In this document: positions 14,319 to 49,229 of the stretch, one piece after another
Position numbering within the stretch: the first letter of the stretch is position 1
How the letters are laid out: each line of letters starts with the position of its first letter
Assembly: GCA_903826575.1 (NCBI GenBank)
Contig: CAIKEU010000098.1
Span: forward strand, 1 to 49,229
Reading direction: 5' to 3'
DNA length: 49,229 bases
Source: an uncultured bacterium
GTDB taxonomy: Bacteria > Actinomycetota > Actinomycetes > S36-B12 > CAIYMF01
Position numbers and translations under genes: made by a program
Notes under the pieces: generated by a model
The model's database searches: none
Told to the model about the DNA's origin: nothing
The model's input: only the letters and a program-made list of their open reading frames with translations

Positions 14319-14364
14319 CGCACGGTAGTTCGTGAAGTGGCAGAGGTTTTTGACCTAGCCGAGG

Positions 14365-19615: not shown

Positions 19616-19628
19616 TGCTGGTGAAAAG

Positions 19629-28450: not shown

Positions 28451-28463
28451 CCAGCCCGCGGGC

Positions 28464-29695: not shown

Positions 29696-29708
29696 AATGA
29701 ACCTCCGG

Positions 29709-29728: not shown

Positions 29729-29764
29729 GCCTGAGGTAACAAAGCCCCGCGGCACCAGCGCTGA

Positions 29765-30046: not shown

Positions 30047-30051
30047 GCCAA

Positions 30052-31368: not shown

Positions 31369-31383
31369 AGCGAGGCCTTTCCC

Positions 31384-31524: not shown

Positions 31525-31668
31525 CTACATATGAAGTTGTGTGTGACATTCTACCTGCCGGACCGATGCGCGAACACCCCGGTCTTGAGTCAGACTGTAC
31601 GACAGCGTCATATTCTTGATCGACTCGGTTCCAACATATGAGACACACTCTGGTGAGGAGGCTCGGTC

Positions 31669-33071: not shown

Positions 33072-33117
33072 CCGTCGACATCGTCCGTAGCCAACGCCGC
33101 TTCCATAAACCAAAACC

Positions 33118-33141
33118 AAAGGGCCCCCGAAAGGACCCTTT
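33118..33141. terminator. Short terminator between convergent genes
   Basis: Arms AAAGGG and CCCTTT with further CC/GG pairing around a CCGAAA loop. It is located between the gpgS operon and the convergent DUF3800 gene. Confidence 0.6.
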
Positions 33142-33218
33142 GTGAGCGGAGCCGGGATTCCACATGCGTGGAGCAGCACCGCTCCCCAACGTTAACAAAC
33201 ACCGACGACTGCAGCCAT

Positions 33219-33854
33219 TCATTTATGCACAGGGCCTCCGTTGACGTCCCGCACCGCCAAGAAGCTTGAGTACCAAGTGGCCAACAACGGACGGGATTCG
33301 CTTACCTGTTGAAATGCCAGGTAAGCAACCCAGTCCGCCATCATGATCCATTGATTTGAGTGAGATGGCTGGTACCACGGATCTTCGAGTACGCGCCGGG
33401 AATCAATCGGCAATGCACGATGCGCCTCAAGGTACACGGGGTCAGTTCCGTCGCCGTCGATCATGACCAGTGCATGATCGCCGCTGGCGATTAAATCGGC
33501 TTCAAGATCACGAAGGGCCGCTACATAGACATTTCGTCGATCATGCCCAAGCCCGTACACCACACGCCATTGCACAGGGAGGCGAGCCAACGCGTTGACC
33601 ACGGTTAGTCCCGCAGCAAGGCGTAAGTTCGGCCGCCTGTTCCACGATTGATCAAGTGATGGGTTTCCTCTGCCCGCTAAAAAATCAACTGCGTGCAGTT
33701 CATCCCTGACGGGGATGGCAAGTTCGTCCCGCAACTGCCTTCGCATTCGCAACCATTGTTGGAGCACGGTTCCCCAGTCATCCGGGCATACCTCAAGCAT
33801 GGCGTAGAGCGTTATCCCCGAATTTCCCGAATCATCAACATAAACCATGCGCAC
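33219..33854 (-). CDS. DUF3800 protein
   Basis: A 211-residue protein of the DUF3800 family: the N-terminal strand MVYVDDSGNSG with paired Asp residues, an internal ELHAVDFLAGRG, VMIDGDGTDP, and the C-terminal IMMADWVAYLAFQQ helix. The family has an RNase H-like arrangement of acidic residues and is common in accessory DNA, often near phage-defence genes, but its activity is not established. The start was set at GTG 33854 because TAGCGT lies seven bases before it; the longer frame to 33902 adds 16 residues that do not look conserved, and a later ATG (33848) is also possible. Confidence 0.8.
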   Translation of the reverse strand: MRMVYVDDSGNSGITLYAMLEVCPDDWGTVLQQWLRMRRQLRDELAIPVRDELHAVDFLAGRGNPSLDQSWNRRPNLRLAAGLTVVNALARLPVQWRVVYGLGHDRRNVYVAALRDLEADLIASGDHALVMIDGDGTDPVYLEAHRALPIDSRRVLEDPWYQPSHSNQWIMMADWVAYLAFQQVSESRPLLATWYSSFLAVRDVNGGPVHK

Positions 33855-33961
33855 GCGCGAAACGCTAAGGCCCAAGCCTGACAATCGCCCACGGCTTTCC
33901 ACAGGTGATTTTGGTCAAATCGAGACGAGGGAGACCGTCGCTCAACCGATGGAACTACTCG

Positions 33962-35422
33962 CTAAGCGGAGTAGTCCGAGCCGATCACCAGCGTGATTTG
34001 TGACTTCGACATGCCCGGTAGCGGCTTGTGCGTCAGTGACGCTTGCGGAACGTCCCTGCGCATGGTGCCTGATGCTGTGCGCGGCCCCGGCGAGTAGACG
34101 ACGGTTTGTGCCGATGGACCCTTGGCGTAGTTACCAACAGACAAGATCTTCCAGCCCTTTGCACGCAGATCATCGGCGACCTTCGCGGCAAGCCCGCTCG
34201 TACCCGAACCGTTGAGTACAACAACCGGAACGCTGCGGTCACCGGCAACGACGGGAGCCGCCGATGATGCGTCGGGGGTCGGAACTACCGGAGCGGACGT
34301 GGGGATTGTTGGGACGATCGAGATAACCGGGGTCGGAACAACTGGGACCGGCGGCACGATCGGTGGAGTGGGGACCGTAGAAGCCGCAGGCTGATTCGTC
34401 GGAGCGACAACTACGTTGGTGTCAATGTTGCTGTTTTGGAAGTGAGTCCAACCAGCAATGAGAGCCATAATCGCCACGGCACCAAGGGCAATCGGCACGA
34501 GTAGCTTTCCCCAACGCGACGGAGTTCCGCCGACAGGGACGATACCTTCGCCTTTGACGAATGGCGGTTCGACGTACCACGCATCGCCTGGGGCTTCGGC
34601 GGCGTAATCAGGGATCTGCCCAGTCGAAGTCGACGGCGCGGAATCCGCGTAATAGGACTCGAATTGGGAAGTGTGATCTAGCGCCGGGCTGGCGGCATCC
34701 ATCGTCTGAACTGATTCCTCGAGCCCCAGAGAGTTGTCGGCCGGCGCCACAGCCTCACGCGGCGCAAAAATCGACGGATCGAAATCCTGATGAACCGCAG
34801 CCGCGACGACAGGAACGGCAGCAACGAAAGTATCCGCATCGTCGAACTCGACGGGCGCATACATGGGCCGCTCGAACACCGGGCGTTCGTCGATGGGCCG
34901 CTCAACAACCTGCTCAACGCCGGGCTCGGCGGACGTTGCATGGTAAATCGCGGTGTCATAGGAAACCGCTGGAATCATTGGAGCTTCGGGCGCGACAGGT
35001 TCGGGTATCTCAACCCCATGCTCAGCAGCAAGGCTTGCAGCAATCGGATCGACGTAGTTCGGCGTGACGTGGTGTGACGTAACGGTCACATGCTCGACGC
35101 GCATCGGCGGCGCGGAGTCAAACCCATCCTGCTCGCGCAGCTGCGAGACGTCGATTGCCCCCGTTTCAAACCACGTGCGATCAAAGAACGAATCAGCATC
35201 CGAGGACGGGTAAGACACGGGCACCACGACGGGAGCTGGCTCAGCCTCAAGCGGTGGCGCATCCATAAACAACGGCGTCTCTCGCTGGGCCTTCACCGCA
35301 TCAGGGAGGGTGTCGAAGCGCTGGGCAAGTGTGTCCGTCTGCCAATCGACAGACGGATCCATTGACAGGTCAGGCTCTGCCACACGCGGAATTGCTCCGG
35401 TGTCGTGAATATCTGTGCTCAC
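33962..35422 (-). CDS. Membrane protein with LytR_C domain, VirR-like
   Basis: A 486-residue protein. Residues 1-310 are a long acidic, proline-rich cytoplasmic region (many PVF/ERPM and AP repeats). A single transmembrane helix at about 313-332 (LLVPIALGAVAIMALIAGW) is followed by a Pro/Val/Thr linker with repeated VVPTP motifs. A C-terminal LytR_C domain (VPVVVLNGSGTSGLAAKVADDL and on) completes the protein on the outside. The architecture and the DUF3263 neighbour match Rv0431 (VirR), which affects cell-wall integrity and vesicle release in mycobacteria, although the cytoplasmic part is much longer here. Start GTG at 35422 with a G-rich ribosome site. Confidence 0.85.
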   Translation of the reverse strand: MSTDIHDTGAIPRVAEPDLSMDPSVDWQTDTLAQRFDTLPDAVKAQRETPLFMDAPPLEAEPAPVVVPVSYPSSDADSFFDRTWFETGAIDVSQLREQDGFDSAPPMRVEHVTVTSHHVTPNYVDPIAASLAAEHGVEIPEPVAPEAPMIPAVSYDTAIYHATSAEPGVEQVVERPIDERPVFERPMYAPVEFDDADTFVAAVPVVAAAVHQDFDPSIFAPREAVAPADNSLGLEESVQTMDAASPALDHTSQFESYYADSAPSTSTGQIPDYAAEAPGDAWYVEPPFVKGEGIVPVGGTPSRWGKLLVPIALGAVAIMALIAGWTHFQNSNIDTNVVVAPTNQPAASTVPTPPIVPPVPVVPTPVISIVPTIPTSAPVVPTPDASSAAPVVAGDRSVPVVVLNGSGTSGLAAKVADDLRAKGWKILSVGNYAKGPSAQTVVYSPGPRTASGTMRRDVPQASLTHKPLPGMSKSQITLVIGSDYSA

Positions 35423-35448
35423 AGCGGCCCCCCGGCGGCGGGAGTTAG

Positions 35449-35739
35449 TTACAGCTCGATGCCAAGACGGCGGGCGGAACGGGCACGCTGACGTGAGGCG
35501 CGCATACGACGAAGGCGCTTGATCAGCATCGGGTCGAATTCAAGGGCAGCCGGATCATCCAACAAGCCGTTGAGAACCTGGTAATAGCGGGTTGCACTCA
35601 TGTCAAAAAGCTCGCGGATTGCCTGCTCTTTGGCACCTGCGTACTTCCACCACTGCCGCTCGAATTCGAGAATGGCACGGCTCCGCTCAGACAAAGCGTC
35701 ACCCGACCGCAGGGGGTCGACGGCGTGTGCGGCGTCCAT
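35449..35739 (-). CDS. DUF3263 protein
   Basis: A 96-residue basic helical protein of the DUF3263 family (Rv0430-like): SERSRAILEFERQWWKYAGAKEQ, then an HTH-like IRELFDMSATRYYQVLNGLLD, and an Arg-rich end (MRASRQRARSARRLG). The middle resembles a DNA-binding helix-turn-helix, which suggests a small regulator. It lies 26 bases upstream of the LytR_C gene on the same strand, the same order as in mycobacteria. AGGAGA eight bases before ATG 35739 fixes the start; 25 further open codons upstream are not conserved in character. Confidence 0.88.
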   Translation of the reverse strand: MDAAHAVDPLRSGDALSERSRAILEFERQWWKYAGAKEQAIRELFDMSATRYYQVLNGLLDDPAALEFDPMLIKRLRRMRASRQRARSARRLGIEL

Positions 35740-35940
35740 CCAGCGTTCTCCTGACTTTGTGGGATACGGATCCGTAGGCGCAGATGTCACGCGGGGCCGG
35801 CAGACCTCCCGCAACGTCTCGAGAACACTCTACGGGGTGAATCCCATCGATGTCATTCACCCCCCACTTAGCGGTGTCGGGTCGTGTCTGAACGGGGATA
35901 TCGCATGTGCGCAGGCGCCGAGGCTCGCGTGGTTGCCGCC

Positions 35941-36294
35941 TCATGGCCGCACCACATAGACCTTGCGGATGGTCTCGTGCACCGTCCACGTCGACACAAT
36001 TCCGGGCGGATAGGAGCACACGTCACCGGGGCCGACTTCGAGCGTCGGGCCGTTTTCGATCTCGATCGTCGCGCGGCCAGACAGGACGACAAAGATTTCG
36101 TCCGCTTCCACGTCTGAGCTGACGCCAACCCCGTGCTGCCAGATGCCAACGGTTACATCGTCACCTTCATAAATGCCCTTGTGAAAGACCTCAGGCTCCC
36201 CCGAAATGATCGTCGCTGGGTCGAGAGGCGCCGAATCAAGTTCTGAATCAAGCAGGGCGGAAGCGGAAATTACGCGAGGCTCAGACGAAAACAT
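35941..36294 (-). CDS. Cupin-domain protein
   Basis: A 117-residue single-domain cupin. The strand pattern is VGIWQHGVGVSSDVEADEIFVVLSGRATIEIE (residues about 48-80), then a proline-rich turn GPGDVCSYPPGIVSTWTVHETIRKVYVV. The usual metal-binding His pair of motif 1 is replaced (EADEIF keeps the Glu), like the DUF861/EutQ-type cupins that act on small nitrogen compounds or as accessory proteins. The substrate is unknown. TAGCCT lies six bases before the ATG, overlapping the stop of the channel gene, so it can be transcribed alone. Confidence 0.8.
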   Translation of the reverse strand: MFSSEPRVISASALLDSELDSAPLDPATIISGEPEVFHKGIYEGDDVTVGIWQHGVGVSSDVEADEIFVVLSGRATIEIENGPTLEVGPGDVCSYPPGIVSTWTVHETIRKVYVVRP

Positions 36295-36303
36295 GAGTCG
36301 AGG

Positions 36304-37212
36304 CTAACTTCCGTCCCTCTCGATCTCCTCAGCAAATTCGCCAGATTTAATCCCACTCGCGGACGTATTCGTCGTGGCCGTAAGCGCCGCGAGCGCCGTT
36401 TCAATACGAGCGAGGCGGGTTTCAATGTCACCCATCGAGACCTCCGTCTCCTCAGCTGCGACTGCATTGGCGGGGCCGCTGACAAACCTGGACGCGATGG
36501 TCGCAGTAACGATGGAGATGGTGGCCAAACCGGTGAGTATGACGATCGTCGCCGCCACGCGCCCGCCGGTAGTCACTGGCGTGTAGTCACCGTAGCCAAC
36601 CGTGGCGATGGTGCACACTGCCCACCACAGCGCTTGGCCATAATTCTTAATATTCGCCTGAGGGCTCTGTTTTTCGAATGCCAGCACAATGATGGCGCCG
36701 AAGGTGATCACCAGAATGGTCAGGTAGAGCGAATAAAGAGAGAGCCGGTTACGCAGTTGGGCTGGGGACCGAGCGAGGCGCACAACTACATAGCCGATAA
36801 GGACGACGCGAAGCGGCGGCACAACGACGGCCAAAATGAGTAGCCAGTGACGGTGTAGGAACGTGCGTCGCTCGCCATCGAACACCCATCGCAGGATGAG
36901 GTCAGCCACGAAACCGAGCCAACCGATCACGAAAATCGTGTCGCCCTCAGCGGTGTCGAATTCACTGCCGAACTTGAGGATCATGCCGACGAGGATGAAC
37001 ATCCCGAACATGAAGATGGGCAGGCGAGAAATTCGGTCGTAGGCGTCGAGCTTGGACTCCCCCTCGCGTCGACCGAGAATCAGCTCACGTCGCCCACGCG
37101 CGCGCTGCCGTTCGCCTTCCAAAACCTCGAGCTGTTCTTCGATGTCGTGGGTTAGGCGATTAGCAGGTGAGGCGTTCGTCTCCGGGTCGTCAGGTGGATC
37201 GGAGTGAATCAC
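36304..37212 (-). CDS. Voltage-gated-like potassium channel
   Basis: A 302-residue ion channel. After an acidic and basic cytoplasmic head (1-62) come about six transmembrane segments: 64-80, 92-110, 122-143, 160-180, then the pore helix and selectivity filter T204-V-G-Y-G-D209 and the inner helix 215-236. The fourth segment region (PLRVVLIGYVVVRLARSPAQLRNR) carries spaced Arg residues as in voltage sensors. The C-terminus (MGDIETRLARIETALAALTAT) is a short coiled coil likely to hold the tetramer together. It conducts K+ across the cytoplasmic membrane. GTG at 37212 is directly preceded by AGGAGA. Confidence 0.9.
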   Translation of the reverse strand: MIHSDPPDDPETNASPANRLTHDIEEQLEVLEGERQRARGRRELILGRREGESKLDAYDRISRLPIFMFGMFILVGMILKFGSEFDTAEGDTIFVIGWLGFVADLILRWVFDGERRTFLHRHWLLILAVVVPPLRVVLIGYVVVRLARSPAQLRNRLSLYSLYLTILVITFGAIIVLAFEKQSPQANIKNYGQALWWAVCTIATVGYGDYTPVTTGGRVAATIVILTGLATISIVTATIASRFVSGPANAVAAEETEVSMGDIETRLARIETALAALTATTNTSASGIKSGEFAEEIERDGS

Positions 37213-37309
37213 TCTCCTATCTTCTCGCCGCCCTCAGCCGTTCAACGTCTCCGACACTCTGCGCGCTCGCTTTCGCCGTGTTCGCGGTGCAAGACCCACG
37301 ATGACGGAT

Positions 37310-37810
37310 CTATCTTTCCGTCGCCTCACGCGCATCGCGTAGTGAACGCAGATAGGGCAGGGCCCGTAGATCCTTCTGTCGTCCAGCCGCTTCTTTGGAC
37401 ACAATAATGTCTGTCAAGGATGCCACTCGGATTGTTAATCCGTCTGCGATCTTTTCATCGGTAGCGGCCTCGTTCCAACCAGCGAAGCCCACGAGCGGAC
37501 CCGACGGCTCGAACGTGAGGTCGACGACGCCAAAGTCGGTAACCAGATTCAGCATAAACGGCATGTTCAACAAGAACGGTGCGTCGATGCGTACATCGAC
37601 CGGTTCGTCTTCGGTTCGGATGCGTGCGTTCATGCGCGTCAAAGCAACTGCCAATCGCTCGAGGTTGGTGAACTCACGATTGGGCAGGACATCAATGTCT
37701 TCGGTCGGGAGAGGTGAGCCAAGGATTAGTGACGCAAACCCGCCTACAACTAGGTACTCAACACCCTCTTCACCTAGGATCCGGCACACGGAAATGGGGT
37801 CAAAGTTCAA
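37310..37810 (-). CDS. Small nucleotidyltransferase-fold protein, probable toxin
   Basis: A 166-residue minimal nucleotidyltransferase: LVVGGFASLILGSPLPTEDIDVLP, with G23-G24 and D38/D40, followed by a ligand-side pattern ending SLTDIIVSKEAAGRQKDLRALPYL, as in DUF6036-type proteins. It is preceded by a 52-residue protein whose stop overlaps its TTG start (TTGA). The arrangement is that of a TA module with the antitoxin first. Which RNA or protein it modifies, if any, is unknown. Confidence 0.72.
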   Translation of the reverse strand: MNFDPISVCRILGEEGVEYLVVGGFASLILGSPLPTEDIDVLPNREFTNLERLAVALTRMNARIRTEDEPVDVRIDAPFLLNMPFMLNLVTDFGVVDLTFEPSGPLVGFAGWNEAATDEKIADGLTIRVASLTDIIVSKEAAGRQKDLRALPYLRSLRDAREATER

Positions 37811-37965
37811 CGACGTGAAGCCTCTGCGTTATCGGCGATGCTGCGAAGAACATTTGCGACCCGGACCATGTGGGCCACGCGCTCTGCGGTCGTCATGGCC
37901 AAGAGCTCTCGAATGCGGGCGATATCGACGCCCCGTTCATCGTCGATCGCATACGTGTCAGGCAC
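37807..37965 (-). CDS. Small probable antitoxin upstream of the nucleotidyltransferase
   Basis: A 52-residue ORF starting GTG 37965: DERGVDIARIRELLAM, then TTAERVAHMVRVANVLRSIA and a short tail. The IRELLAMTTAERV pattern with a following amphipathic helix is, from memory, common in small proteins encoded just ahead of nucleotidyltransferase-fold genes. TAGACT stands exactly six bases before the GTG, so the mRNA is probably leaderless. The stop overlaps the toxin start by four bases. Confidence 0.65.
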   Translation of the reverse strand: MPDTYAIDDERGVDIARIRELLAMTTAERVAHMVRVANVLRSIADNAEASRR

Positions 37966-38036
37966 GTCTACAGTCTACGCCTCTTTCTCTGTTGCAACCG
38001 AAAATAATCACTGGAAGCAGGATTGCGATCGACTAG

Positions 38037-38246
38037 CTAGGGGTGCGGGAAGATCGTTTCAATTCGTGGGCCTTGCGTTAACCAAAAGACCTTGTAGGGG
38101 AAGTGCCCCTGAACGGCGAGCCGTAACATGACGCCGTCGTTCGTGGTGATTGCCGATGAACGCATGCGGGCGTGATTTGGTAGACGAAAGATGAGGTCGC
38201 ACGTGTCGAGGATCGCGTTGTAAAGAGCAGGATCTGGCCCGGCTAC
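38037..38246 (-). pseudogene. Broken ORF downstream of vapC
   Basis: Right after the vapC stop, in another frame, 69 codons read as convincing protein: GPDPALYNAILDTC, then FRLPNHARM, SSAITTNDGVMLRLAVQGH and PYKVFWLTQGPRIETIFPHP before a TAG. There is no ATG, GTG or TTG near its beginning and a TAG lies immediately upstream in frame, so the 5' end is missing. It looks like the remnant of a small accessory protein of unrecognised family. Translation from an unusual codon or re-initiation after vapC is a less likely alternative. The rest of the gap between here and 37965 shows nothing. Confidence 0.5.
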
Positions 38247-38659
38247 CTAAACGAGAGAACCTTGACGCGCAGATCCAACGTTTCCCAGTAGAGATCGCCA
38301 CCCGTAATTGGCAAGTCGAGCCGCTCTGCCACAGCGATGCACAGTCCATCACCCAACGACAGCGAACCCGCGGGACTCGAAGCCGATTTACTCGCGGCGA
38401 TCAATTCAGACGCCCGAATCGCGTCTTGAGTGAACACTGGCTCGACTTGCGCACCCATCGTCATGAAGGCGCCAGCCAACTCAGACGCCGCAAGCCCATG
38501 CCCACGTAGCCGAGCGATGTAAAGCACCTCCGCTAGACCTGAGGATGGAACCACGGCAACGGGAAGCAGTTTGTCGACCAGTGCCTTCGCCGGCCGTCCC
38601 AGAATCCATTCGAGAGCGGCCGACGCGTCCAGGACGATCCGCCGCTCGAGGCCATTCAC
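38243..38659 (-). CDS. vapC: VapC-type PIN-domain toxin
   Basis: A 138-residue PIN-domain ribonuclease. The four acidic residues that hold the metal ions are in place: D11 (VLDASAALEW), E44 (SSGLAEVLY), D104 (SLGDGLCIA) and D122 (ITGGDLYWE). VapC toxins cleave tRNA or rRNA sites when freed from VapB. Its GTG start overlaps the antitoxin stop (GTGA), the normal order for vapBC operons. Confidence 0.9.
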   Translation of the reverse strand: MNGLERRIVLDASAALEWILGRPAKALVDKLLPVAVVPSSGLAEVLYIARLRGHGLAASELAGAFMTMGAQVEPVFTQDAIRASELIAASKSASSPAGSLSLGDGLCIAVAERLDLPITGGDLYWETLDLRVKVLSFR

Positions 38660-38979
38660 AGCCCAAGTTCGGCGAGTAGCCGCTCGCCAGCAGCCTCGTC
38701 GAATGGAGTCGCCACTCTGCGCGCGATGGCCTCAAGCGCGATTTCACCATCCGCCGACCGAGCGGCGGCTACGTCCGCAACCGAATCGCCTTCGACGCCT
38801 GGTGCGGCATCCCACACCCGAGCACGCACAGATGCAGGCGTCTCAAGTATGAGACGACCCAACTCGTCGACATGACCGACAAGATCACTTCCTATGGTGA
38901 TCCCGGCCGCATCCCGAAGTGCAGCCGGCAGCACAATCCGATTCTTCGGACCAACGCGCAGTGTCACGAGATCTCCCAT
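38656..38979 (-). CDS. vapB: VapB-type antitoxin with AbrB/MazE-like domain
   Basis: A 107-residue protein. Residues 5-45 are a SpoVT-AbrB/MazE swapped-hairpin DNA-binding domain (TLRVGPKNRIVLPAALRDAAGI, then VGHVDELGRLILE). The helical C-terminus (VAAARSADGEIALEAIARR, PFDEAAGERLLAELGL) would wrap around VapC. TACAAT lies seven bases before the ATG, so the transcript is probably leaderless, and an inverted repeat covers this promoter. Confidence 0.88.
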   Translation of the reverse strand: MGDLVTLRVGPKNRIVLPAALRDAAGITIGSDLVGHVDELGRLILETPASVRARVWDAAPGVEGDSVADVAAARSADGEIALEAIARRVATPFDEAAGERLLAELGL

Positions 38980-39006
38980 GTGTCACATTGTAGGTCGGAG
39001 TGACAC
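38980..39006 (-). promoter_or_regulatory. Inverted-repeat operator and promoter of vapBC
   Basis: Plus-strand arms GTGTCAC (38980-38986) and GTGACAC (39000-39006) are perfectly inverted with 13 bases between them. They bracket the minus-10 element TACAAT read on the minus strand. The near arm touches the start codon. A third GTGTCAC occurs at 38961-38967 inside vapB. The AbrB-like antitoxin is the obvious ligand. Confidence 0.75.
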
Positions 39007-39075
39007 GTGATGGCCACACCCGATCGCCTTTGCAGGTGGGGAGATGGTTCCAGCCCTGCGCGCCCGAAGAATTAG

Positions 39076-39402
39076 TTATCCACCGGAGGCGCACGTGACG
39101 CAGCGGATCGCCCAGGGATGGATTTCGAGGCGTCCCTCGGGGATTGGGCCGCCGCAGGTGTCGCACTGCCCGTACGTGCCCTCATCGAGCTTTGTGAGCG
39201 CGCGATCAACTTCGCCGAGTTGGACGAGGATCTGTTCGTGGGCGGCGACATTCGTGAGCCGTTCGACGGCCATCGCGGTGCCGTCACCGACGCGTTTGCC
39301 GAACGAAATCCCACCGGTGTCGACCGGTGCGGCGGTAAGGCCGTCGGCCCGCGCGACGAGGTCGGCGCGCTTGGCCAGAAGTTCACGTCGAGCATCCGTC
39401 AT
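39076..39402 (-). CDS. DksA/TraR-type zinc-finger protein
   Basis: A 108-residue protein with a helical N-terminal half (RRELLAKRADLVARADGL, EQILVQLGEVDRALTKLDEG) and a C-terminal C4 zinc finger C80-x-x-C83 ... C101-x-x-C104, with YGQCDTCGGPIPEGRLEIHPWA between. It belongs to the DksA/TraR family that binds the secondary channel of RNA polymerase; the coiled-coil tip acidic pair is not clear, so the precise effect on transcription is uncertain. GGGAGGG precedes the ATG at 39402. It stands alone, divergent from the secreted protein gene. Confidence 0.88.
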   Translation of the reverse strand: MTDARRELLAKRADLVARADGLTAAPVDTGGISFGKRVGDGTAMAVERLTNVAAHEQILVQLGEVDRALTKLDEGTYGQCDTCGGPIPEGRLEIHPWAIRCVTCASGG

Positions 39403-39578
39403 GCGCCCTCCCCTGATCTTTCGTTGAGTCACCGTTCACTGATTGTTTCAGCCCTTGATGATGCCCGATGCGGTTACTTCACGCCCAGTGTTCGATGTTG
39501 TGCGCCGAACGGGTGAGATAGCAGACAGTTTCGCCCTCACCCATTCAGTAGTAGGCGCAACCCTCCGACGTTCTAAGT

Positions 39579-40280
39579 ATGAGCGCGACATGGATTCGAG
39601 TAGCGGCAGCGACGGTTGGCACACTGGCGATCGTCGCAAGCGCACCAATGATCGCATCGGCTACTGAGGGCCGGCCGAAAACGTCAGACGACCGTTCGTC
39701 TGTATCGCTCCCGACGACGGGTGCAGATAAGTCGTCGACGAGCAGCGATGCTGGCAACAGTTCGTCCAAGGACGGCAACGGCACTCGTACGTCGAAATCC
39801 GATGACCATGGCACGTCGGCTGGTTCGCACGGAGATGACTCTGGACATGGCGCATCCGGCGAGGATGGCCAGCAAAATGGCGGCGGGAATGCCGGGGGCG
39901 GTAATGCGGGTGGTGGCAATGCCGGTGGAGGTCAGGCTTTAACAGCCAAGGCGACGATTTCCGTTGGTGTGCCTGCGATTGCGTTCACCAAGGACATCGT
40001 GAGTGCGGGTGGCCAGCTGCGCGCACCGGTGCTCATTAACGCCGCTGAGCGTGCCGGTACTGCAACGCTGTTCCGCGACGGAATTGCGACGTCATGCTCG
40101 GTGCCGGCCCAGCCTGGCGTAGTGGCGTGGTTGCAATGTTCACTGAACAACTCGTCAGGCCGCGACGACGCTGGATCTCAGTCGAAGTCGAATCCCAAGA
40201 GCGCCACAACCCACACGTACACGGTGGTTGTGAAGACGACGAATGGTCTGACCGCGACCCACGCAGTCACTCTCGCGTAG
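39579..40280 (+). CDS. Secreted Ser/Gly-rich protein
   Basis: A 233-residue exported protein. Residues 1-28 are a signal peptide (TVGTLAIVASAPMIASA). Residues 30-115 are a disordered Ser/Asp/Gly/His linker that ends in three tandem NAGGG repeats. The last 110 residues form a beta-rich domain (KATISVGVPAIAFTKDIVSAGG and on) with a likely disulfide between the Cys of TSCSVPAQ and the Cys of WLQCSLNN. The final strand HTYTVVVKTTNGLTATHAVTLA resembles an Ig-like fold. There is no membrane anchor. The family is not recognised. Confidence 0.7.
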   Translation: MSATWIRVAAATVGTLAIVASAPMIASATEGRPKTSDDRSSVSLPTTGADKSSTSSDAGNSSSKDGNGTRTSKSDDHGTSAGSHGDDSGHGASGEDGQQNGGGNAGGGNAGGGNAGGGQALTAKATISVGVPAIAFTKDIVSAGGQLRAPVLINAAERAGTATLFRDGIATSCSVPAQPGVVAWLQCSLNNSSGRDDAGSQSKSNPKSATTHTYTVVVKTTNGLTATHAVTLA

Positions 40281-40480
40281 GCTCGCCAACTAACTCCGCC
40301 GTCAAAGTCCGCCGCGGCAATAGCTGGGGAAAATCGCGCCAACTTACGGCAGAACAACCCTATGATGCGCTATCGCTCAACAGAACGAGCGATTCCGAGA
40401 CTGCCTGATGTGCTCCGCTCTGCCCCGGCTCTTTCCATAAGGATGGCCACCGGCGTGGACACTGGTTGGCATCAGCGCAG

Positions 40481-40518
40481 TTTCGTAAACTATCCTATTT
40501 GCAGGATGTTTTACGAAA
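40481..40518 (+). promoter_or_regulatory. Palindromic operator of the HTH/nucleotidyltransferase operon
   Basis: Arms TTTCGTAAACTATCC and GGATGTTTTACGAAA form a 38-base dyad with 13 of 15 positions complementary. It covers a likely minus-10 (TATCCT at 40491) with TTGGCA 19 bases upstream, and ends 14 bases before the gene start. The AT-rich dyad contrasts with its surroundings. Confidence 0.8.
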
Positions 40519-40531
40519 TGGGAGGTGCGTT

Positions 40532-41239
40532 GTGGAGTTATCTGTTTCGGAGGCTGCTGACCGCCTCCAGTTAGATCAGAGCCGCATTCGCCAGTTGGTG
40601 AACGCGGGCGACCTACCCGCTCGGAGGGCTGGCAAGGCTTGGCTCGTCGACGGCGACGCGGTCGCGTTGATGTCTCGGCGTGCGCGCCCGCACGGGCGTC
40701 CGCTGTCCGAACCACGCGCATGGGCGCTGCTCGATCTGCTGGCAGGAGGGGATGCGCCCTGGCTCGCCCCACCGGCGCGAAGCCAGGTCCGCTCGGTTGT
40801 GCGACGCATGGAGTCCCTTGGAGCAGATGAGTGGCGCGCCGCTCTTCGCAACCGAGGGCAGAAAGTTCCGGTAGGTGGACATCCGGCCGCGGTTCGTCGC
40901 CTCGTGCAGTCTCACGAGGCGGTACTCGCTGGCCCCGGCCAAGCGTCTGCCCACGGCGTCGATCTGGTGGCACTCAATGCCCGGCCGGAGGTTTACCTCG
41001 ACGCGAAAGGTTGGGCGCACCTCTCACAGTCGCACCACCTAGATGATGAGGCGTGGTCGACTGCGTCTGCAGTGGTCCGGCTGGTCCATCATGACGGCAT
41101 CATTGCGCGGCTGCGGGCTAACGAGCGTCTCCTTGCCCTTGCTATTGCCACTGACTGCCTCGATGACGCGAACCCTCGAGCGAACCACGCAGGTATGGAA
41201 CTCATAGGTGAAGCAGCCGATCGAGCATTAGGGATGTAA
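40532..41239 (+). CDS. Excisionase-like HTH protein, probable antitoxin
   Basis: A 235-residue protein. Residues 1-50 are a MerR/excisionase-type winged HTH (SVSEAADRLQLDQSRIRQLV, then GDLPARRAGKAWLVDGDAVAL). The rest is helical and probably binds the partner: RAWALLDLLAGG, RSQVRSVVRRMESLGADEWRAALRNRG, and a C-terminal half with VVRLVHHDGIIARLRANERLL. GGAGG six bases before GTG 40532 sets the start. A large dyad sits over its promoter, and the next gene, two bases downstream, encodes a nucleotidyltransferase-fold protein. This is the order of a type IV or type II-like TA operon. Confidence 0.78.
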   Translation: MELSVSEAADRLQLDQSRIRQLVNAGDLPARRAGKAWLVDGDAVALMSRRARPHGRPLSEPRAWALLDLLAGGDAPWLAPPARSQVRSVVRRMESLGADEWRAALRNRGQKVPVGGHPAAVRRLVQSHEAVLAGPGQASAHGVDLVALNARPEVYLDAKGWAHLSQSHHLDDEAWSTASAVVRLVHHDGIIARLRANERLLALAIATDCLDDANPRANHAGMELIGEAADRALGM

Positions 41240-41241
41240 AC

Positions 41242-41994
41242 GTGACGGCGGTCATCAATCTGCCCGTATTGGGCTCGCCGACGGACCAACTTTGGGAAGT
41301 ACTACTCAACCTGTCCACCAAGACCAAGTTCGTTCCCTGGATGCTCATCGGTGGACAGATGATGCTTATTCACACGCTGGAACATGGCCGCGAGCCGTTG
41401 CAGGTCAGCCAAGACGGAGACGCCATCGCCGATATCCGCGCTCGCCCCGACGCTTTGTTGGCCCTCGTTCGGATCTTAGAAAGCGAGGACTTCGAGTCCG
41501 ACGGTATGAGCCCTGATGGACGGGCTCACCGCTACAGGCACATGACATTTGACCCACCGGTTTTGGTCGATGTACTCGCTCCAGACAACGTCGGGCCGCG
41601 CGCCAACCTGACGACGACACCACCGGGAAGGACAGTCGAGGTCCCTGGTGGCACCCAAGCCCTACACCGGATTGAGGAAGTCGAGGTGGTCTTGGCCAAC
41701 GGTCGTAGTGGACTTGTTCCACGGCCCGATCTTCTCGGAGCCATCATCATCAAGGCTGCTGCCACATCGCTGGCTGAACGTCAGGATCGACACTTCAATG
41801 ACCTTGCGCTGCTGTGCTCTCTCGTTGATGAGCCGTTTGAGATGCGTGAGCAGATGGGAACCAGCGACAAACGGTGGCTCCGACGGGCCGGAGAGCTAGC
41901 ACAGGAAGACCATTACTCGTGGGCATTCATAGACCCCGCGTATCGAGCCGACGGACTGTCGGCGTTGAAGATCCTTCTTGCATCGGAAAACTGA
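41242..41994 (+). CDS. Nucleotidyltransferase-fold protein, probable toxin
   Basis: A 250-residue protein with WMLIGGQMMLIHTLEHGR (G37-G38), then VSQDGDAIADI with D58 and D60 as the acidic pair, and further FDPPVLVDVLAPDNVG as a third acidic strand. The C-terminal half has LLGAIIIKAAATSLAERQDRHFNDLALLCSLV (about residues 164-195), equivalent to the KxxAxxxRxxxHxxDLALL block of AbiEii-like proteins. It is immediately downstream of the HTH gene and shares its promoter. Toxic nucleotide transfer to RNA is the family precedent; the substrate here is unknown. The 74 bases after its stop hold no clear terminator. Confidence 0.75.
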   Translation: MTAVINLPVLGSPTDQLWEVLLNLSTKTKFVPWMLIGGQMMLIHTLEHGREPLQVSQDGDAIADIRARPDALLALVRILESEDFESDGMSPDGRAHRYRHMTFDPPVLVDVLAPDNVGPRANLTTTPPGRTVEVPGGTQALHRIEEVEVVLANGRSGLVPRPDLLGAIIIKAAATSLAERQDRHFNDLALLCSLVDEPFEMREQMGTSDKRWLRRAGELAQEDHYSWAFIDPAYRADGLSALKILLASEN

Positions 41995-42933: not shown

Positions 42934-44052
42934 TTAGCTTGAAGCGTGTCGACCGAAGTACTCGCGACGACGACCCGCAATGAGCGCCCCCACGCCGAAA
43001 CCGAACGACAGGGTTGCGCCGAGGATCAGATCGATGGGGTCGCCACCCGTGTGTGGCAACTTCGTGCCACCGCCACCCGTTGATGGGATGGTGCCGCCAC
43101 CGTTATCGCCGCCACCGGAGTTGCCGCCTGAACCCGATCCGCCGGTGCCGCCCGTGCCGCCGCCTTCGCCGCCGCCGGTTCCTGATCCGCCACTGGTGTC
43201 GCTAGGAATCGTCGTGGTGATGTTGCCTCTGCTGTTGCCAGGAACGGGCGCGGGCTGCGAGATCGGGTTGTAGACGTAAAAGACGAATGAGGCGTTGTAC
43301 TTTCCGCCTTGGGCCGACATCACATACACGCTCGATGGAAGCGTCTTCGACAGAACGACGACAGTGTTCCCGTTGCCGTCCTTGTTCGTTACGAGTGCCG
43401 CGTTGAGGTTGATGTTTCCAACCGTGAAAGTAACCAGCGTGTTCGCCGGGAAGTTAGACACGATCAGGCGAATGGGCTCGCCAACCTTGATCGGGGATCC
43501 CTGCGCGACGGCTTGGCCCTCTTTATTGCCGATCGCGAGAGTGGGTGTGCCGTGAACCTTGATGGGAACGACCGTCGACGAGGCACCGGCGAAATTGAGA
43601 CCCTGAGTCGGCTGAAAGGTCGCGGTGAGATTTGCCGAGCCAGCCGAGCGAGAGTTGCTCTCAACAACGGCCTGCCCGCCAACAACATTCGCCTGAGCGA
43701 AAACTTGGCCGTCGGCCAAGAAGTTTACGATGCCCTGCGCATCAGCGGGACTGACTACTGCCCGGAATGTGGCGGGCGTGTACGTCTGAAGATCTGTACC
43801 CGGCTCGACGCTGAGGGCAATCTGCGTGGGAACGATCACGTTCTGCACTCCAGCAGCAGACGAGGGACCAGAGGTTGGCGAGGCACTCGCACTCGGGCTT
43901 GCCGACGGAGACTGAGACGGGCTTGCCGAAACCTTGGGAGTCGGTGTGGGGCTTGCACTTGCAGCGGACGCGGATGCTAGCGGCGCGAGCGACATTGCAA
44001 GGCACACGAGAGCAACAGCAACCGCTGAATGTGCAGTCCGCGCCTTCTTCAC
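42934..44052 (-). CDS. LPxTG-anchored cell-surface protein with Ig-like domain
   Basis: A 372-residue surface protein. Residues 1-30 are a signal peptide, followed by a Ser/Pro spacer with SPSASPSASASP repeats. An Ig-like (Big_3_5-type) domain lies at about 75-170 (FRAVVSPADAQGIVNFLADG, ANLTATFQPTQGLNFAG). A second beta domain (PIKVGEPIRLIVSNFPANTL) is followed by a Gly/Ser/Thr linker. The C-terminus is a complete sortase signal: L332-P-H-T-G336, a hydrophobic helix and an RRR tail. A sortase would cut after Thr and link it to peptidoglycan. GGAGGG stands before the GTG start. It is the last but one gene of the minus-strand surface locus, behind its own intergenic region. Confidence 0.9.
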   Translation of the reverse strand: MKKARTAHSAVAVALVCLAMSLAPLASASAASASPTPTPKVSASPSQSPSASPSASASPTSGPSSAAGVQNVIVPTQIALSVEPGTDLQTYTPATFRAVVSPADAQGIVNFLADGQVFAQANVVGGQAVVESNSRSAGSANLTATFQPTQGLNFAGASSTVVPIKVHGTPTLAIGNKEGQAVAQGSPIKVGEPIRLIVSNFPANTLVTFTVGNINLNAALVTNKDGNGNTVVVLSKTLPSSVYVMSAQGGKYNASFVFYVYNPISQPAPVPGNSRGNITTTIPSDTSGGSGTGGGEGGGTGGTGGSGSGGNSGGGDNGGGTIPSTGGGGTKLPHTGGDPIDLILGATLSFGFGVGALIAGRRREYFGRHASS

Positions 44053-44331: not shown

Positions 44332-45795
44332 CTAGCTGATCTTCTTACCGAGCGAGACAACAGCCTTGTTGTTGTAGCCGGCACGCGTCGCGCTAACAGT
44401 TACGGTAAGCGACTTACGCTTGTCCGCTGATGTCGTCCTATACGAGTTCTTCGTCGCACCCTTGATGACAACGCCGTTGCGCTTCCACTGATAGGTGTAC
44501 TTCGTTCCCGCCGGACTCCAAGTTCCATCGGTGACCTTCAGCAACTTTCCGACCTTAAGGACGCCTGAGATCACTGGCAACTTCGTGTTCTTAAAGTTCG
44601 CCTTGGCAATCAAGCCAGCCGGTGAATCGTCATACCCAGTGCCACCCGTGTTCGTGGCCGTCACCTTACAGAAGACGGGAAGACCGACCATGGAAGCCGT
44701 CAGCAGCAACTTATTCGTGGTCTTGCCTGCGATCTGGCGACCGTTGAGCCACCAAGAGTAGGCAAAGGGAGGCGTGGGGTTATTCGACCAAGTTCCGTTG
44801 ACGCACGTCAGGGTCTGATCGACAACGTGTGCACCAGTGGTGGTGACGCTCGTCTGTGAAGTCGGCGGAAGAACCGGCGTTACGACGCTGTAGATCAGGT
44901 CCGTCGACGGTGCTGACGCACCGTAGCCGGGAGCAGTAGGCGTGAAAACGGCTGTGAAGTCGTGATCGCCAGTTGTCGGCGCGAATGAGGCCGTGGTTGC
45001 GACGCCAGTTGTTCCATCAACGGGGATCGCAGTTCCCTGTGGAATTGGTACGCCGTAGTCGAAGAACGTCATCGTGCCAGCAACAACCGGGGTGGCGGTT
45101 GAACTGAGCGTGATTGCAGTTCCGGCCGTCTGGGGGCTCGCCAAGGACGGCATAGGCGCCGAGGCTGTCGTACCTAGCGACGATACGACCGGGTAAACCT
45201 GCTGCCATGTGCCGGGGTTCTGAGCATCCGCGCCGAGCTCAAATGCGATTTCCATCGTCGACCAAGTCGTCGCGTTGGGGGTTTTCGTATCCTTCACACG
45301 AAGTTGAGCGTAACCGTCATAGCCAGCGGTGTGATCCAAGACCGCCACGGAGAGGAACGAGTAAATGTTGCCATCGGTGGTTCCGTTTAGCGTGACCGTG
45401 GGGCCGGTGGCACTCGTGACCACTGAAGGTGCGCCGGGGGTCGCAACCGGGAAGACTGTCGACCCAGAGACAGTCTGCGAAGCCCACAAAGTTGAGACCT
45501 TTGTGTGATCGGGAGCGGCGATCGAAAGGATGGCCTTGATAGCTCCAACGCGGGGAGTTGTCGACGTCGCCGCGTAGATCGCACCTCCAAGGTCCTTAAG
45601 CGATCCCGACGTGACGGGCGTCCCCGAAGCGTCGTACAACGTGATCGAGCCGTTTGAGGCCGGATCAATGGCAGTGTCGCCAACATAAGCGGGTGGGCTC
45701 GTGCTTACGTAAGCAGCACTCGCTGGGTTGACACTGATGAGACTTGCTACCGCGGCACCAACTGCACCGAGGGCTACTAGGCGTGAAACTCGCAC
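44332..45795 (-). CDS. Secreted multi-domain Ig-like surface protein
   Basis: A 487-residue exported protein. Residues 1-27 are a signal peptide. Residues 45-200 are a domain shared with the next protein upstream: GSITLYDASGTPVTSGSLKDL (about 49-69), a middle with STLWASQTVSGS, then YAQLRVKDT and a W-rich end. An Ig-like domain follows (TAGTAITLSSTATPVVAGTM, TGDHDFTAVFTP). Two C-terminal repeats of about 75 residues (VNGTWSNNPTPPFAYSWWLNG and TDGTWSPAGTKYTYQWKRNG) each end in a VTATN/VTVSA strand. There is no anchor sequence, so it is probably held by other wall components or released. GGAAGGGGAAG precedes the GTG start. Confidence 0.82.
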   Translation of the reverse strand: MRVSRLVALGAVGAAVASLISVNPASAAYVSTSPPAYVGDTAIDPASNGSITLYDASGTPVTSGSLKDLGGAIYAATSTTPRVGAIKAILSIAAPDHTKVSTLWASQTVSGSTVFPVATPGAPSVVTSATGPTVTLNGTTDGNIYSFLSVAVLDHTAGYDGYAQLRVKDTKTPNATTWSTMEIAFELGADAQNPGTWQQVYPVVSSLGTTASAPMPSLASPQTAGTAITLSSTATPVVAGTMTFFDYGVPIPQGTAIPVDGTTGVATTASFAPTTGDHDFTAVFTPTAPGYGASAPSTDLIYSVVTPVLPPTSQTSVTTTGAHVVDQTLTCVNGTWSNNPTPPFAYSWWLNGRQIAGKTTNKLLLTASMVGLPVFCKVTATNTGGTGYDDSPAGLIAKANFKNTKLPVISGVLKVGKLLKVTDGTWSPAGTKYTYQWKRNGVVIKGATKNSYRTTSADKRKSLTVTVSATRAGYNNKAVVSLGKKIS

Positions 45796-45858
45796 GCGAC
45801 TTCCCCTTCCCGTTCATTCCCCCCGCGGCCTTTTGGCACGCGAGCCGTGCTCGAAAAA

Positions 45859-46797
45859 TCAAGATCCCGAGTGGGATCCTGGGTTGGAATTTGTGACTGC
45901 CCCCGCAGCCGCGGTGTTGCGTCGCACGATGTACGCGCCGATGAGCCCGCCGATCAGTGGAAGACCGATCACGGCGGCCAAGATTAGCGGCAACGAGGTG
46001 CCTGAACTCGACCCGCTCGAACTCGCGACGTTACTTCCCGCAGCGCCGGCGTCACTCGATGCCGCTTGACTTCCAGCAGACACGGTGGGACTGGCCACCG
46101 ATGCAGGGGTGGTCGACGTCGTCGGAGTAGGCGCACCCACCACGATCGCAGACGGAGTAACGCTCGGATTCGCACCATGGAAAGTCGGCGAGGCGGACGG
46201 AAGATGCGACGGGCCGAGCATGTTCACTTCGCCAGAAACAGCCTTGCCAGCGCCGCAATCGCCACCGCCGCCTTGGACCAAGGTCCAGTGGGTGCCATCA
46301 ACCTTGATGATTGCGGCGGGGTATGTCTTGCGATACGGCTGCATATTGATGTTCGTGTAGTAAACGCGGACCTGGGCGAGGCCCTGCCACAGCGGCGCAA
46401 TGCTCGTAAAGTCTATAAGCGGCAGGTCGCCGTACGTTGCTTGGACGACCGGATGCTTCGGGTTCGAGTAGCGCGCGCTACCGGTCATCTGCTTGCCATT
46501 CCACAGTCCGGGATCCACCCCCTCGCGCGGCTGAAGCACGAATGCCACTGCCTTCCCAAGGGGCATGTAATAGCCCTCGGGCGCCGGTGCTGAAGAGATG
46601 TACTTCCAGACGAAAGGAATATCAGTGATGGACCCCGACGTAACTTCCTTGTCGTTCTTATCGCAAAACGTCAGCGATCCGAGGACATTACGGTCGTTGA
46701 ACGGAATCGAGACCGAATCCGCGCGCGCTGGTATCGCAACGAAAGTCAACGCGCTCAGGCAAAGAGCTAGGACTGCCAAAACACGACGTACAAACAT
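45859..46797 (-). CDS. Membrane-anchored surface protein sharing the same N-terminal domain
   Basis: A 312-residue protein. Residues 1-26 are a signal peptide (ALTFVAIPARA). Residues 35-175 are the shared domain: LGSLTFCDKNDKEVTSGSI (39-57), PREGVDPGLWNGKQMTGSA, LAQVRVYYTN and KVDGTHWTLVQ. A Ser/Thr/Ala stalk (about 200-265) leads to a transmembrane helix (LPLILAAVIGLPLIGGLIGAYIV) and a short cytoplasmic tail beginning RRN. The family is not recognised. Its ATG at 46797 overlaps the stop of the DUF916-like gene (TGATG), so the two are made together. The frame also has a TTG one codon earlier. Confidence 0.82.
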   Translation of the reverse strand: MFVRRVLAVLALCLSALTFVAIPARADSVSIPFNDRNVLGSLTFCDKNDKEVTSGSITDIPFVWKYISSAPAPEGYYMPLGKAVAFVLQPREGVDPGLWNGKQMTGSARYSNPKHPVVQATYGDLPLIDFTSIAPLWQGLAQVRVYYTNINMQPYRKTYPAAIIKVDGTHWTLVQGGGGDCGAGKAVSGEVNMLGPSHLPSASPTFHGANPSVTPSAIVVGAPTPTTSTTPASVASPTVSAGSQAASSDAGAAGSNVASSSGSSSGTSLPLILAAVIGLPLIGGLIGAYIVRRNTAAAGAVTNSNPGSHSGS

Positions 46798-47924
46798 CAA
46801 ACTGTCCCTGGAGTGGAGTTAGCCGACCCCGCCGATACGAGATCGGGATTGGATGAAGTGCTCGAAGCATCCGGGGTCGACGTCGGCGTGCGACGCATAC
46901 GTATGAACGCTGCTCCGATCGCGGCTAGACCGAGAAGACCCGCAAGCAACGTCCATGCGATGGCCCAGAAGTTCGTCGACGCGCTGGCTACCTCTGACGC
47001 TGGATCAGCATCACCGGCTACAGCGAGCCCGCTTACCGAAACATCGGCAGTCATGTAACCAACGGGCGTTACATCAGGAACGGTGACAGATACCTTCGCC
47101 GAGTTACCGGGCAGAAGCATCGGAACGTTAGCAAGCTTCGGGGCAGAAGTTGTCGGCCCGATAAGGCCATGCACACTCACTTCTTGCTGACCGCCAAGGC
47201 GCACGTTGCCGGTATTGGTGACGGTGTACGTAACGGTGACGTTTCCCTTGCCGAACGGGTTCACGGTTCCCGCGTAGGCAGCTTGGAGATCCTTAACTTC
47301 GAGACCCGGCGTCAAAACGCCAGCCACTCGAACTCCAAGGCGAATACCAACGCGCTGCTCGAGCTTGACGTTCGTACCGCGCTCACCCGGCGTCGTTCCC
47401 TCTGAAACGAGGGACGCCACGATGCCGGCCAAATGATCACCTACGTAGGCGGTCTTTGGAATGTGCACGACAAATGGGACGTAGACCTTTTCACGTGGTG
47501 CCAAATTGACGTAACCCTTAGACCCACGCCCGCCGAAGGTGACCCAGGCAGCTGCATCTTTCGGCTTCACATAGCCGGGCTGCAACGTGAGCGAGCCGTC
47601 ATCGGCGTTGAGGCCATCGGCTGCATAGAGGTTCAGAGTCAGTGGTTGGTACGTGAGGTTAACGACAGCAACCTCGTCAGAGACCAGCCCACCCTTGGGC
47701 GACAACATGTTGTAGTTCGGGCGGCGATCGACCTGATGATTCTTGCTCGGGCCGATGCCAAAAGTGACGACGGGCTTGCCAGCGGCGTCCGTAGCCGCCG
47801 AACCGCTTGGATTCGGAGACGGAGCCGGAGAAGGGGTTGTTGACGCTGCGAGCGCAGGCGATCCGGTCAATACAATGATCGAAACGGTAGCCGCTGCGGC
47901 CAGAACCTTACTTATCCTCAACAC
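46797..47924 (-). CDS. DUF916-like WxL-interacting membrane protein
   Basis: A 375-residue protein. Signal peptide at 1-26 (ATVSIIVLTGSPALAA). The ectodomain begins VTFGIGPSKN, then SPKGGLVSDEVAVVNLTYQPLTLNLYAADGLN (about 73-104), LAPREKVYVPFVVHIPK, GDHLAGIVASLVSEG and VGIRLGVRVAG, the pattern of the DUF916 (WxL-interacting, peptidoglycan-binding) domain. A second beta domain (VTYTVTNTGNVRLGGQQEV) is followed by a transmembrane helix at about 319-341 and a Ser/Thr tail inside. In Firmicutes such proteins tether WxL proteins to the wall; the gene upstream here encodes a WxL-like protein. TACGGT six bases before GTG 47924 sets the start, rejecting 26 further codons. Confidence 0.82.
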   Translation of the reverse strand: MLRISKVLAAAATVSIIVLTGSPALAASTTPSPAPSPNPSGSAATDAAGKPVVTFGIGPSKNHQVDRRPNYNMLSPKGGLVSDEVAVVNLTYQPLTLNLYAADGLNADDGSLTLQPGYVKPKDAAAWVTFGGRGSKGYVNLAPREKVYVPFVVHIPKTAYVGDHLAGIVASLVSEGTTPGERGTNVKLEQRVGIRLGVRVAGVLTPGLEVKDLQAAYAGTVNPFGKGNVTVTYTVTNTGNVRLGGQQEVSVHGLIGPTTSAPKLANVPMLLPGNSAKVSVTVPDVTPVGYMTADVSVSGLAVAGDADPASEVASASTNFWAIAWTLLAGLLGLAAIGAAFIRMRRTPTSTPDASSTSSNPDLVSAGSANSTPGTV

Positions 47925-47930
47925 GGGTTC

Positions 47931-47936
47931 ACCGTA
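47931..47936 (-). promoter_or_regulatory. Minus-10 element before the DUF916-like gene
   Basis: TACGGT on the minus strand ends six bases before GTG 47924, so the DUF916-like gene can be transcribed as a leaderless message separate from the WxL-like gene upstream. Confidence 0.5.
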
Positions 47937-48029
47937 CCCAGCCATCTGTGGCCATAAACCAAAGTAAAGATGAACGAAAGATGACGAACGACGGGCAATC
48001 ACTCACGGCCACCCCTCCCCGTTGATCCT

Positions 48030-49229
48030 TTAACTGCCCAACACTGAGAACGTCACCGTGCCCGCATAAGTGCCATCAAGCAGGTTCGTTGGCGCCCTGA
48101 TCGTCAGAGTCGCGGCGACGACCGTCGTACCCAGACCGGAGTTGGCGTGCAGAATCGGATGTGGAGAAGATCCACCAAGACCGAGCGATCCTGGGTCCGT
48201 CACCTGAACATGGGCTGCAGATGGGTTGTTAAAGCCGGTGAAGTTTTGGCCCGCCGTCGATGTGCCCGGGGTTTGCGATCCGAGGAACGTATTCGGGGTG
48301 GCGTTAGTACTGACCAGAGACGTCACATTCCACCCGACGTTTTGCGCACTAATCGATTGATTAGCATTGGGCGCCGCCACACCCACCTTGTTCAGGTTCG
48401 TAGAGATCAAGGACAACGTATAAGGCAGGTTTCCGGGACGAGTGTCCGCCATCGAAAGGCCAGTGATGTTGAGAGACGACGTGTACTCATCCGCGGTGGA
48501 ATTCAGGGTCAGAGCCGGCAGCAGCAACGGGGTGTTGATCGTCAAGGCGGTGGAGAGATCCAAGGTTCCTGCCGCAATCGACGTCTGAATGTTCTGAGGA
48601 TCACCTATTAGGCCGGTGATTACATTAAACGTCGCGGCGCTGCTTGATGACGCGCAAAACGACCCGAGCCCGCCATAGGCAGCCACGATCGTGTGCGCGG
48701 TCCCTGGGCTGGATGAACTAGTCAGACCCGAGAGGTTGATCGTGACAGCACCGGTCGAGCCAGCGGTGAGGGTTCCTGTCGCGTTGGCGGACGATGACCC
48801 ATCCACGTAGAACGCCACGGTACCCGTGGCAGGAGCCGCGCTCGTTGGCGTGACAACAGCGGTCGCCGTCAGCACATCCGTCGAGCCGAGCGTGACAGTT
48901 GCCTGGCTTAATGTGAGCGCGGTCGCAGGGTAAATCGCCGGCACGCGCTGAACCGTCAAGCTTGACGCACTCGAGGTGCCCGAGCCGAACAGACCCACCG
49001 GGGTGAAAGCAGCGGTGATGCTGTGAGAAACATCCGAGCCACCGGCGCAAGTGGATGTCGTATTCGTGAACATTGACGTTAGCGTGGCAACACCAGTGGT
49101 GCTGTTGTAGGTGGCTGCACCGAGATCGGTTGAGCCATCGAAGAAGTGAACAGAACCAGTCGCGCTCGAAGGCGTGACGGTCGAGGTAAGAGTCACGCTG
49201 TCACCGTTGGTGGCTGGTGAAACTGGTGA
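48030..49229 (-). CDS. WxL-like secreted surface protein, N-terminus beyond the window
   Basis: The frame is open to the last base, so the gene starts outside. The visible 399 residues hold two Ig-like Big_3_5-type domains: one with TLTSTVTPSSATGSVHFFDG and SHSITAAFTPVG, one with LTATAVVTPTSAAPATGTVAFYVDG and HTIVAAYGGLG. A C-terminal domain of about 190 residues follows with GLSMADTRPGNLPYTLSL and the ending NLLDGTYAGTVTFSVLG. The ADTR plus DGTYxGTVTF pattern is that of WxL cell-wall-binding domains, although the usual W of the first WxL motif is replaced here (NLPYTLS). It is upstream of the DUF916-like gene on the same strand, as in WxL clusters. Confidence 0.78.
   Translation of the reverse strand, partial: SPVSPATNGDSVTLTSTVTPSSATGSVHFFDGSTDLGAATYNSTTGVATLTSMFTNTTSTCAGGSDVSHSITAAFTPVGLFGSGTSSASSLTVQRVPAIYPATALTLSQATVTLGSTDVLTATAVVTPTSAAPATGTVAFYVDGSSSANATGTLTAGSTGAVTINLSGLTSSSSPGTAHTIVAAYGGLGSFCASSSSAATFNVITGLIGDPQNIQTSIAAGTLDLSTALTINTPLLLPALTLNSTADEYTSSLNITGLSMADTRPGNLPYTLSLISTNLNKVGVAAPNANQSISAQNVGWNVTSLVSTNATPNTFLGSQTPGTSTAGQNFTGFNNPSAAHVQVTDPGSLGLGGSSPHPILHANSGLGTTVVAATLTIRAPTNLLDGTYAGTVTFSVLGS

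Follow-up and report, generated by a model that had tools for sequence, protein, structure and literature searches.

An undescribed domain, predicted to be an Ig-like beta-sandwich, in neighbouring proteins of a Csc/WxL-like gene cluster from uncultured actinobacteria

Two neighbouring genes, here called A and B, on a contig from an uncultured actinobacterium (CAIKEU010000098.1, whose 49,229 nucleotides are referred to below as the window) raise the question of whether the similar N-terminal regions of their products are truly one domain, how the copies arose and what the proteins might do together. An earlier note on this DNA had described these regions as an unrecognised domain duplicated in tandem, soluble in one product and membrane-anchored in the other, and had suggested a binding role for it. 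Both genes were confirmed as open reading frames of the minus strand (Table 1), and all the motifs listed in that note were found in both of them, namely GSIT at residue 49 of A and GSLT at residue 41 of B, VTSGS at residues 61 and 53 (the latter being 52 when counted from the ATG, as in the earlier numbering), LW at residues 103 and 99, and AQLRV at residue 163 and AQVRV at residue 142. The difference in anchoring was also borne out, with P0002 strongly hydrophobic at residues 270-288 and P0001 having its one such stretch in the signal peptide. The reading favoured here, to which a probability of about 0.5 is given, is that A and B belong to an actinobacterial counterpart of the Csc/WxL clusters in which the shared domain, termed X, would be a recognition or assembly head that diversifies in A and in a third protein, C, and in which B and A would be exchangeable.

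Table 1. Features of the operon in the window
Feature	Positions	Strand	Description
P0005	42934..44052	-	secreted protein, LPHTG motif at 43045-43059, membrane tail; CscD-like
Gene A (P0001, 487 aa)	44332..45795	-	signal peptide, X domain, Ig-like repeats; membrane anchor absent
Ig-like repeats of A	44335..45177	-	
X domain of A, modelled part (176 aa)	45187..45714	-	predicted beta-sandwich, pLDDT 86.3
Gene B (P0002, 312 aa from ATG)	45859..46797	-	signal peptide, X domain, Ser/Pro/Thr stalk, C-terminal membrane helix; ATG overlaps the stop codon of W
Membrane helix of B, residues 270-288	45937..45993	-	
X domain of B, model range	46210-46719	-	pLDDT 85.1
Tail of the X domain of B	46210..46269	-	contains the second of two Cys invariant in 10/10 aligned B proteins
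X domain of B, core (150 aa)	46270..46719	-	
Gene W (P0003, 401 aa)	46797..48002	-	divergent WxLIP/CscA-like protein, C-terminal membrane helix; PF06030 E=0.0014
Gene C (P0004), 3' part only	48030..49229	-	Ig-like repeats and WxL-like C-terminal domain
Presumed exchanged cassette	44572..46908	-	unmatched at the nucleotide level in G004, the closest relative; flanks match

The homology of the N-terminal domains of A and B was confirmed by pairwise and profile tests. Taken by itself, the A-B pair aligns in BLASTP with E=0.002 and 28% identity across 127 columns, a result that is only fairly persuasive and would leave some room for convergence or chance among Thr/Ser-rich Ig-type proteins. This explanation is contradicted by concordant profile, shuffle, held-out and structural results, and is regarded as extremely improbable. 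The local alignment score of 68 was reached by none of 5000 shuffles (mean 31.4, sd 5.2), and the profile-profile match between B (8 rows) and A (8 rows) that the earlier note had called for was statistically supported (hhalign Prob 97.9, E=5e-13), with values of 96.5 (E=9e-10) for B against seven C-type domains and 100 for A against C profiles. As controls, the best of 100 column-shuffled B profiles attained a Prob of 3.3, and other profiles from the operon (the WxL-like C-terminus, W and the first Ig repeat) attained at most 1.1; given these shuffles and controls, neither chance nor composition accounts for the likeness. In the window's own genome, a profile made only of A/C-type domains matches P0002 (E=6.8e-8) and a B-only profile matches P0001 (E=1.1e-4). 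At four loci outside all profiles the B profile detects 6/6 A/C-type proteins (E from 9e-18 to 1.5e-10), and at the remaining five loci of a scan of named genomes it detects 2/11 at E<=1e-3.

The comparison of predicted folds that had been proposed came out in favour of a shared architecture. Models of X were built from disjoint alignments, of 16 A/C rows for A (pLDDT 86.3, pTM 0.85) and ten B rows for B (pLDDT 85.1, pTM 0.85), and display the same strand order. Foldseek gave no PDB match at E<=0.001 for either model, and in a second look the best matches of both were ASF1-type chains (Z 5.9 and 6.0). Residues 21-176 of A and 13-152 of B fall on the same ASF1 residues in a register that is also that of the profile alignment (B9 to A17), and therefore the two models agree independently. 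The likeness to the Ig-like fold of this histone chaperone is one of shape only (Z about 6, rmsd about 4, 5-6% identity), ASF1 being eukaryotic and nuclear; no relationship is claimed, and the match is too weak for inferring function. A known fold with a clear PDB neighbour was not obtained, a missing match being no proof of a new fold. Sequence searches of Pfam, NCBIfam and the PDB were likewise without a usable match, in line with the original description of the domain as unrecognised. No Pfam family fits X, since 0/10 B-type members match at E<=0.1 and the 2/16 A/C-type members that match SSI (best E=0.011) are regarded as chance, while the one hit in NCBIfam was to a sorting signal, below threshold, in the tail of a single B protein. 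Bacterial Ig-like repeats of the Big_3_5 type (PF16640) are present in C, and a similar repeat follows X in A, whereas X matches no Pfam Ig family and does not align with the adjoining Ig repeat. X is an undescribed, presumably extracellular domain, predicted from the models to adopt an Ig-like beta-sandwich. Positions occupied by G, P, W and R are invariant in all rows of both types; two Cys (model residues 19 and 155) are invariant in 10/10 B rows and no Cys is found among the invariant A/C columns, and this putative B-specific pair probably forms a disulfide.

The profile search for other carriers that the earlier note had suggested revealed that in relatives X is likewise the N-terminal domain of C, the WxL-like product encoded two genes upstream. 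In the window the start of C lies beyond the contig end, the place where homologues carry an X domain, and in the window's genome assembly the A/C profile matches P0001 and P0002 only. Among 13 distinct loci (the window, G003, G004, G005, G006, G010, G013, G016, G017, L056, L057, L058 and L060), the order W-B-A is kept in 12, with an extra gene between W and B in G005, and a complete C-W-B-A is found in eight; for the window, G016, G004 and L057, the contig stops on the C side. The four genes are not always together, as in L058 C and B are present and W and A were not found. Further copies lie near by in G013, on a separate short contig in G016 and on another contig in G004. Nine of the 11 strong W genes in the order stand within an X operon; a W gene in G020 adjoins a WxL-like protein without X, and a second W gene in G005 has no X near it. 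Since W genes without X exist, the core of the cluster seems to be a C-W pair to which X was added. P0005, whose product ends in LPHTGG, a hydrophobic helix and then RRR, probably belongs to the same cluster, and one sortase gene lies elsewhere in the window's genome. About 7.5 kb downstream of P0005 the window also encodes a LytR_C protein (33965-35422, minus strand; PF13399, E=2.9e-16), a member of a cell-envelope family.

Within the order, the B-only and A/C-only profiles match the same 9/166 genomes, and in the phylum they match 3/296 and 3/396 sampled genomes, the window's own counted. The scan of named genomes returned nine loci from metagenome-assembled genomes of uncultured actinobacteria, with titles that include Streptosporangiaceae and Jatrophihabitans and some lake names; going by the lengths of the contigs and where the matches fall, five of these loci are the same contigs as in G005, G006, G013, G016 and G017, and L058 looks like G395. 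Carriage of B by phages or plasmids is ruled out for the records searched, 50,697 from phages and 72,556 from plasmids, none of which was matched by P0002 in tblastn. In G354 a single A/C-type domain sits on a repeat protein, with no operon in the stretch read and the gene cut by the contig end. A lone X domain followed by Ig-like and other repeats is encoded at L092 (6949-8361), where the surrounding stretch has neither W nor B nor any further X protein. The last two Ig-like repeats of A (about residues 307-487) occur by themselves in other proteins of related genomes, and the protein at L051 (5937-7580) combines an unrelated N-terminus with an end made of repeats akin to these. Lone repeats of this type are perhaps a general surface module, and P0001 may be attached to the wall through its C-terminal repeats.

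The idea of a tandem duplication that diverged in anchoring holds as far as a domain common to A and B is concerned, and the history is not simply that one, as X occurs in three proteins, B represents an old branch and A resembles C. When 35 domains of all three proteins are placed in a single tree, those of B stand on a branch of their own (100/99), and a second branch is shared by A and C, which often pair when they come from the same genome, a topology that rules out a recent A-B tandem duplication. In nine genomes with both proteins, A and C of the same genome share a mean identity of 61.0% vs 31.0% for other pairs (0/20000 permutations), and the own-genome partner is the best match in 6/9 cases for A and 7/9 for C, and the second best in the remainder. 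Because A resembles the C of its own genome to this degree, A and B are not a recent tandem pair. Same-genome likeness hardly extends to B, whose identity to A is 24.3% within genomes vs 23.4% otherwise, a difference reached by 1034/20000 permutations. B is also the most conserved of the three, with a mean identity of 44.6%, compared with 32.3% for A and 31.6% for C. The likeness of A and C is due to old conversion, repeated duplication or selection for likeness; dS between same-genome A and C ranges from 0.53 to 2.46, so that synonymous sites have already diverged and conversion events, if any, are not recent.

A departure from vertical descent is suggested by the comparison of the window with its closest relative, G004, which covered loci L046, L047, L093 and L094 and in which 28/31 window genes were matched. 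The stretch without a nucleotide match comprises the 3' end of W, the whole of B and most of A. In this pair, picked after the identities were seen, the lowest values are those of A (35%) and B (39%), with W (86%) and P0005 (79%) on the flanks, and dN amounts to 0.056 for W, 0.68 for B and 0.67 for A. The trees are discordant: window and G004 are sisters in the W tree (100/100), while G004 pairs with G006 in those of B (100/99) and A (99/97). An alternative is that B and A of the window are vertical orthologues of their G004 counterparts and diverged rapidly under selective pressure, from phages for instance, and the fairly long branches of the window rows, together with an AU test that is marginal for B (p=0.029), speak for it. 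Against this, one clade of window and G004 is rejected for A (p=0.0011) as well as for B, the grouping of G004 with G006 recurs in both trees, and W and P0005 on either flank do not exhibit such divergence, making fast vertical evolution possible but rather unlikely. The sequence comparison thus points to B-A as a swapped cassette. The C of G004, on another contig, is 47% identical, and in the other close pair, G013/G016, no swap is seen (B 95% and A 78% identical). Elsewhere in the same comparison, window positions 1-20000 display 76-79% nucleotide identity to G004 over most of their length, and positions 28308-39670 form an identity mosaic with L046 (93% at 28308-33055, 91-95% at 37822-39670 and 77% between). 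At 40466-41994, on the plus strand, lie two genes absent from the compared parts of G004, for an HTH_17 protein (E=1.7e-8) and a 250-aa protein with no Pfam, NCBIfam or PADLOC match; the unit has the look of an insertion, either a regulator or a pair of the toxin-antitoxin type.

Considering its position, conservation and exchange, we propose that X is a ligand- or partner-binding head on a complex bound to the wall, and the binding role put forward in the earlier note is plausible. C would be held on the wall via its WxL-like C-terminus, helped by the membrane-anchored, WxLIP-like W, and would display its X at the outer tip of an Ig-repeat stalk; A would be a separate secreted Ig-repeat protein bearing a C-type X, and B, whose X is older and better conserved, would hold this domain out from the membrane by means of its stalk. 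The Ig-like beta-sandwich would serve the complex as its head for recognition or assembly, with A and C binding the same ligand or one another and B as their constant membrane-side partner. A and C would diversify because they face outward and yet be kept alike within each genome, and B-A would be exchangeable as a cassette. A more specific variant is tentative and considered unlikely: the X domains would be polymorphic specificity domains for self- or partner recognition, A and C of a genome would be partners binding each other or a common target, conversion or selection would preserve their match, and strains would change type by exchanging the B-A cassette within an operon that is otherwise conserved. 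X could also be a terminal Ig-like domain with a purely structural task, capping or spacing the stalk so as to protect or orient it and having no specific binding partner, with its divergence reflecting weak constraint; a beta-sandwich that has no close relative whose function is known, and that is less conserved in A and C than in B, would suit such a role. However, the G, P, W and R positions are invariant across both types, A and C stay similar to each other in each genome, and discordant trees are not explained by weak constraint alone, and a mere cap is thus doubtful. Beta-sandwich architectures like the one predicted for X are common in carbohydrate-binding modules. A role of the complex in collecting or processing polysaccharide, which Siezen et al. 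put forward for Csc clusters, with X binding carbohydrate for nutrient capture, would fit this architecture, but no catalytic domain was found in the scanned operon proteins and neither the 16 A/C nor the ten B members match a carbohydrate-binding family, which leaves this function improbable. Under the favoured reading, the likeness of the A and C domains and the presumed exchange of the cassette lead to testable predictions on which proteins touch and what selects them, be it phages, neighbours or surfaces.

The relation of the operon to known systems can be followed from protein to protein. In Firmicutes, Csc clusters are described in PMC1534035, PMC10599100 and PMC9772566 as comprising CscA/WxLIP (DUF916), the WxL proteins CscB/CscC and the LPxTG protein CscD. 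PF06030 (WxLIP/DUF916) matches W with E=0.0014 in the window, 1.7e-5 in L057 and 0.02 in L060/L052, all under the 27.3-bit cut-off, and PF13731 (WxL) matches the C homologue of L056 (E=2e-4, 21.9 bits, cut-off 25) and neither six other C homologues scanned nor the 3'-partial P0004. The D-x-R at -8/-6 described for WxL domains in PMC9772566 precedes the W/Y of motif 1 in 11/11 C-termini, with an exact WxL at motif 1 in 1/11 and YTL in the window, and Trp occupies the last strand at the second WxL motif in 0/11. No small WxL-only protein was present among the operon ORFs examined, the contig ending inside C. Literature searches on WxL in Actinobacteria, Actinomycetota and freshwater, as well as broader ones, brought up no account recognised as that of this locus, which is no proof of absence. 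The cluster differs from Csc clusters in being actinobacterial, with W and C below Pfam cut-offs and a degenerate second WxL motif, and in having two extra genes, B and A, with X in three proteins. In the sequence features that it shares, the C-W-B-A operon resembles the wall-bound Csc/WxL clusters of lactobacilli and enterococci: its proteins are predicted to be secreted, W has a membrane helix and a sub-cut-off likeness to WxLIP, C is large, with N-terminal domains of its own in front of an end that is WxL-like though again below the cut-off, and P0005, a probable member, supplies the LPxTG-type protein typical of most Csc clusters. By analogy with these clusters, as portrayed in PMC10599100, PMC1534035, PMC9772566 and PMC4449606, it likely encodes a wall-bound surface complex. 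An undescribed, bounded domain with confident models, carried by uncultured actinobacteria of which several come from lakes, accompanies a cluster suggesting that WxL-type surface complexes reach beyond the Firmicutes, where the cited papers describe them.
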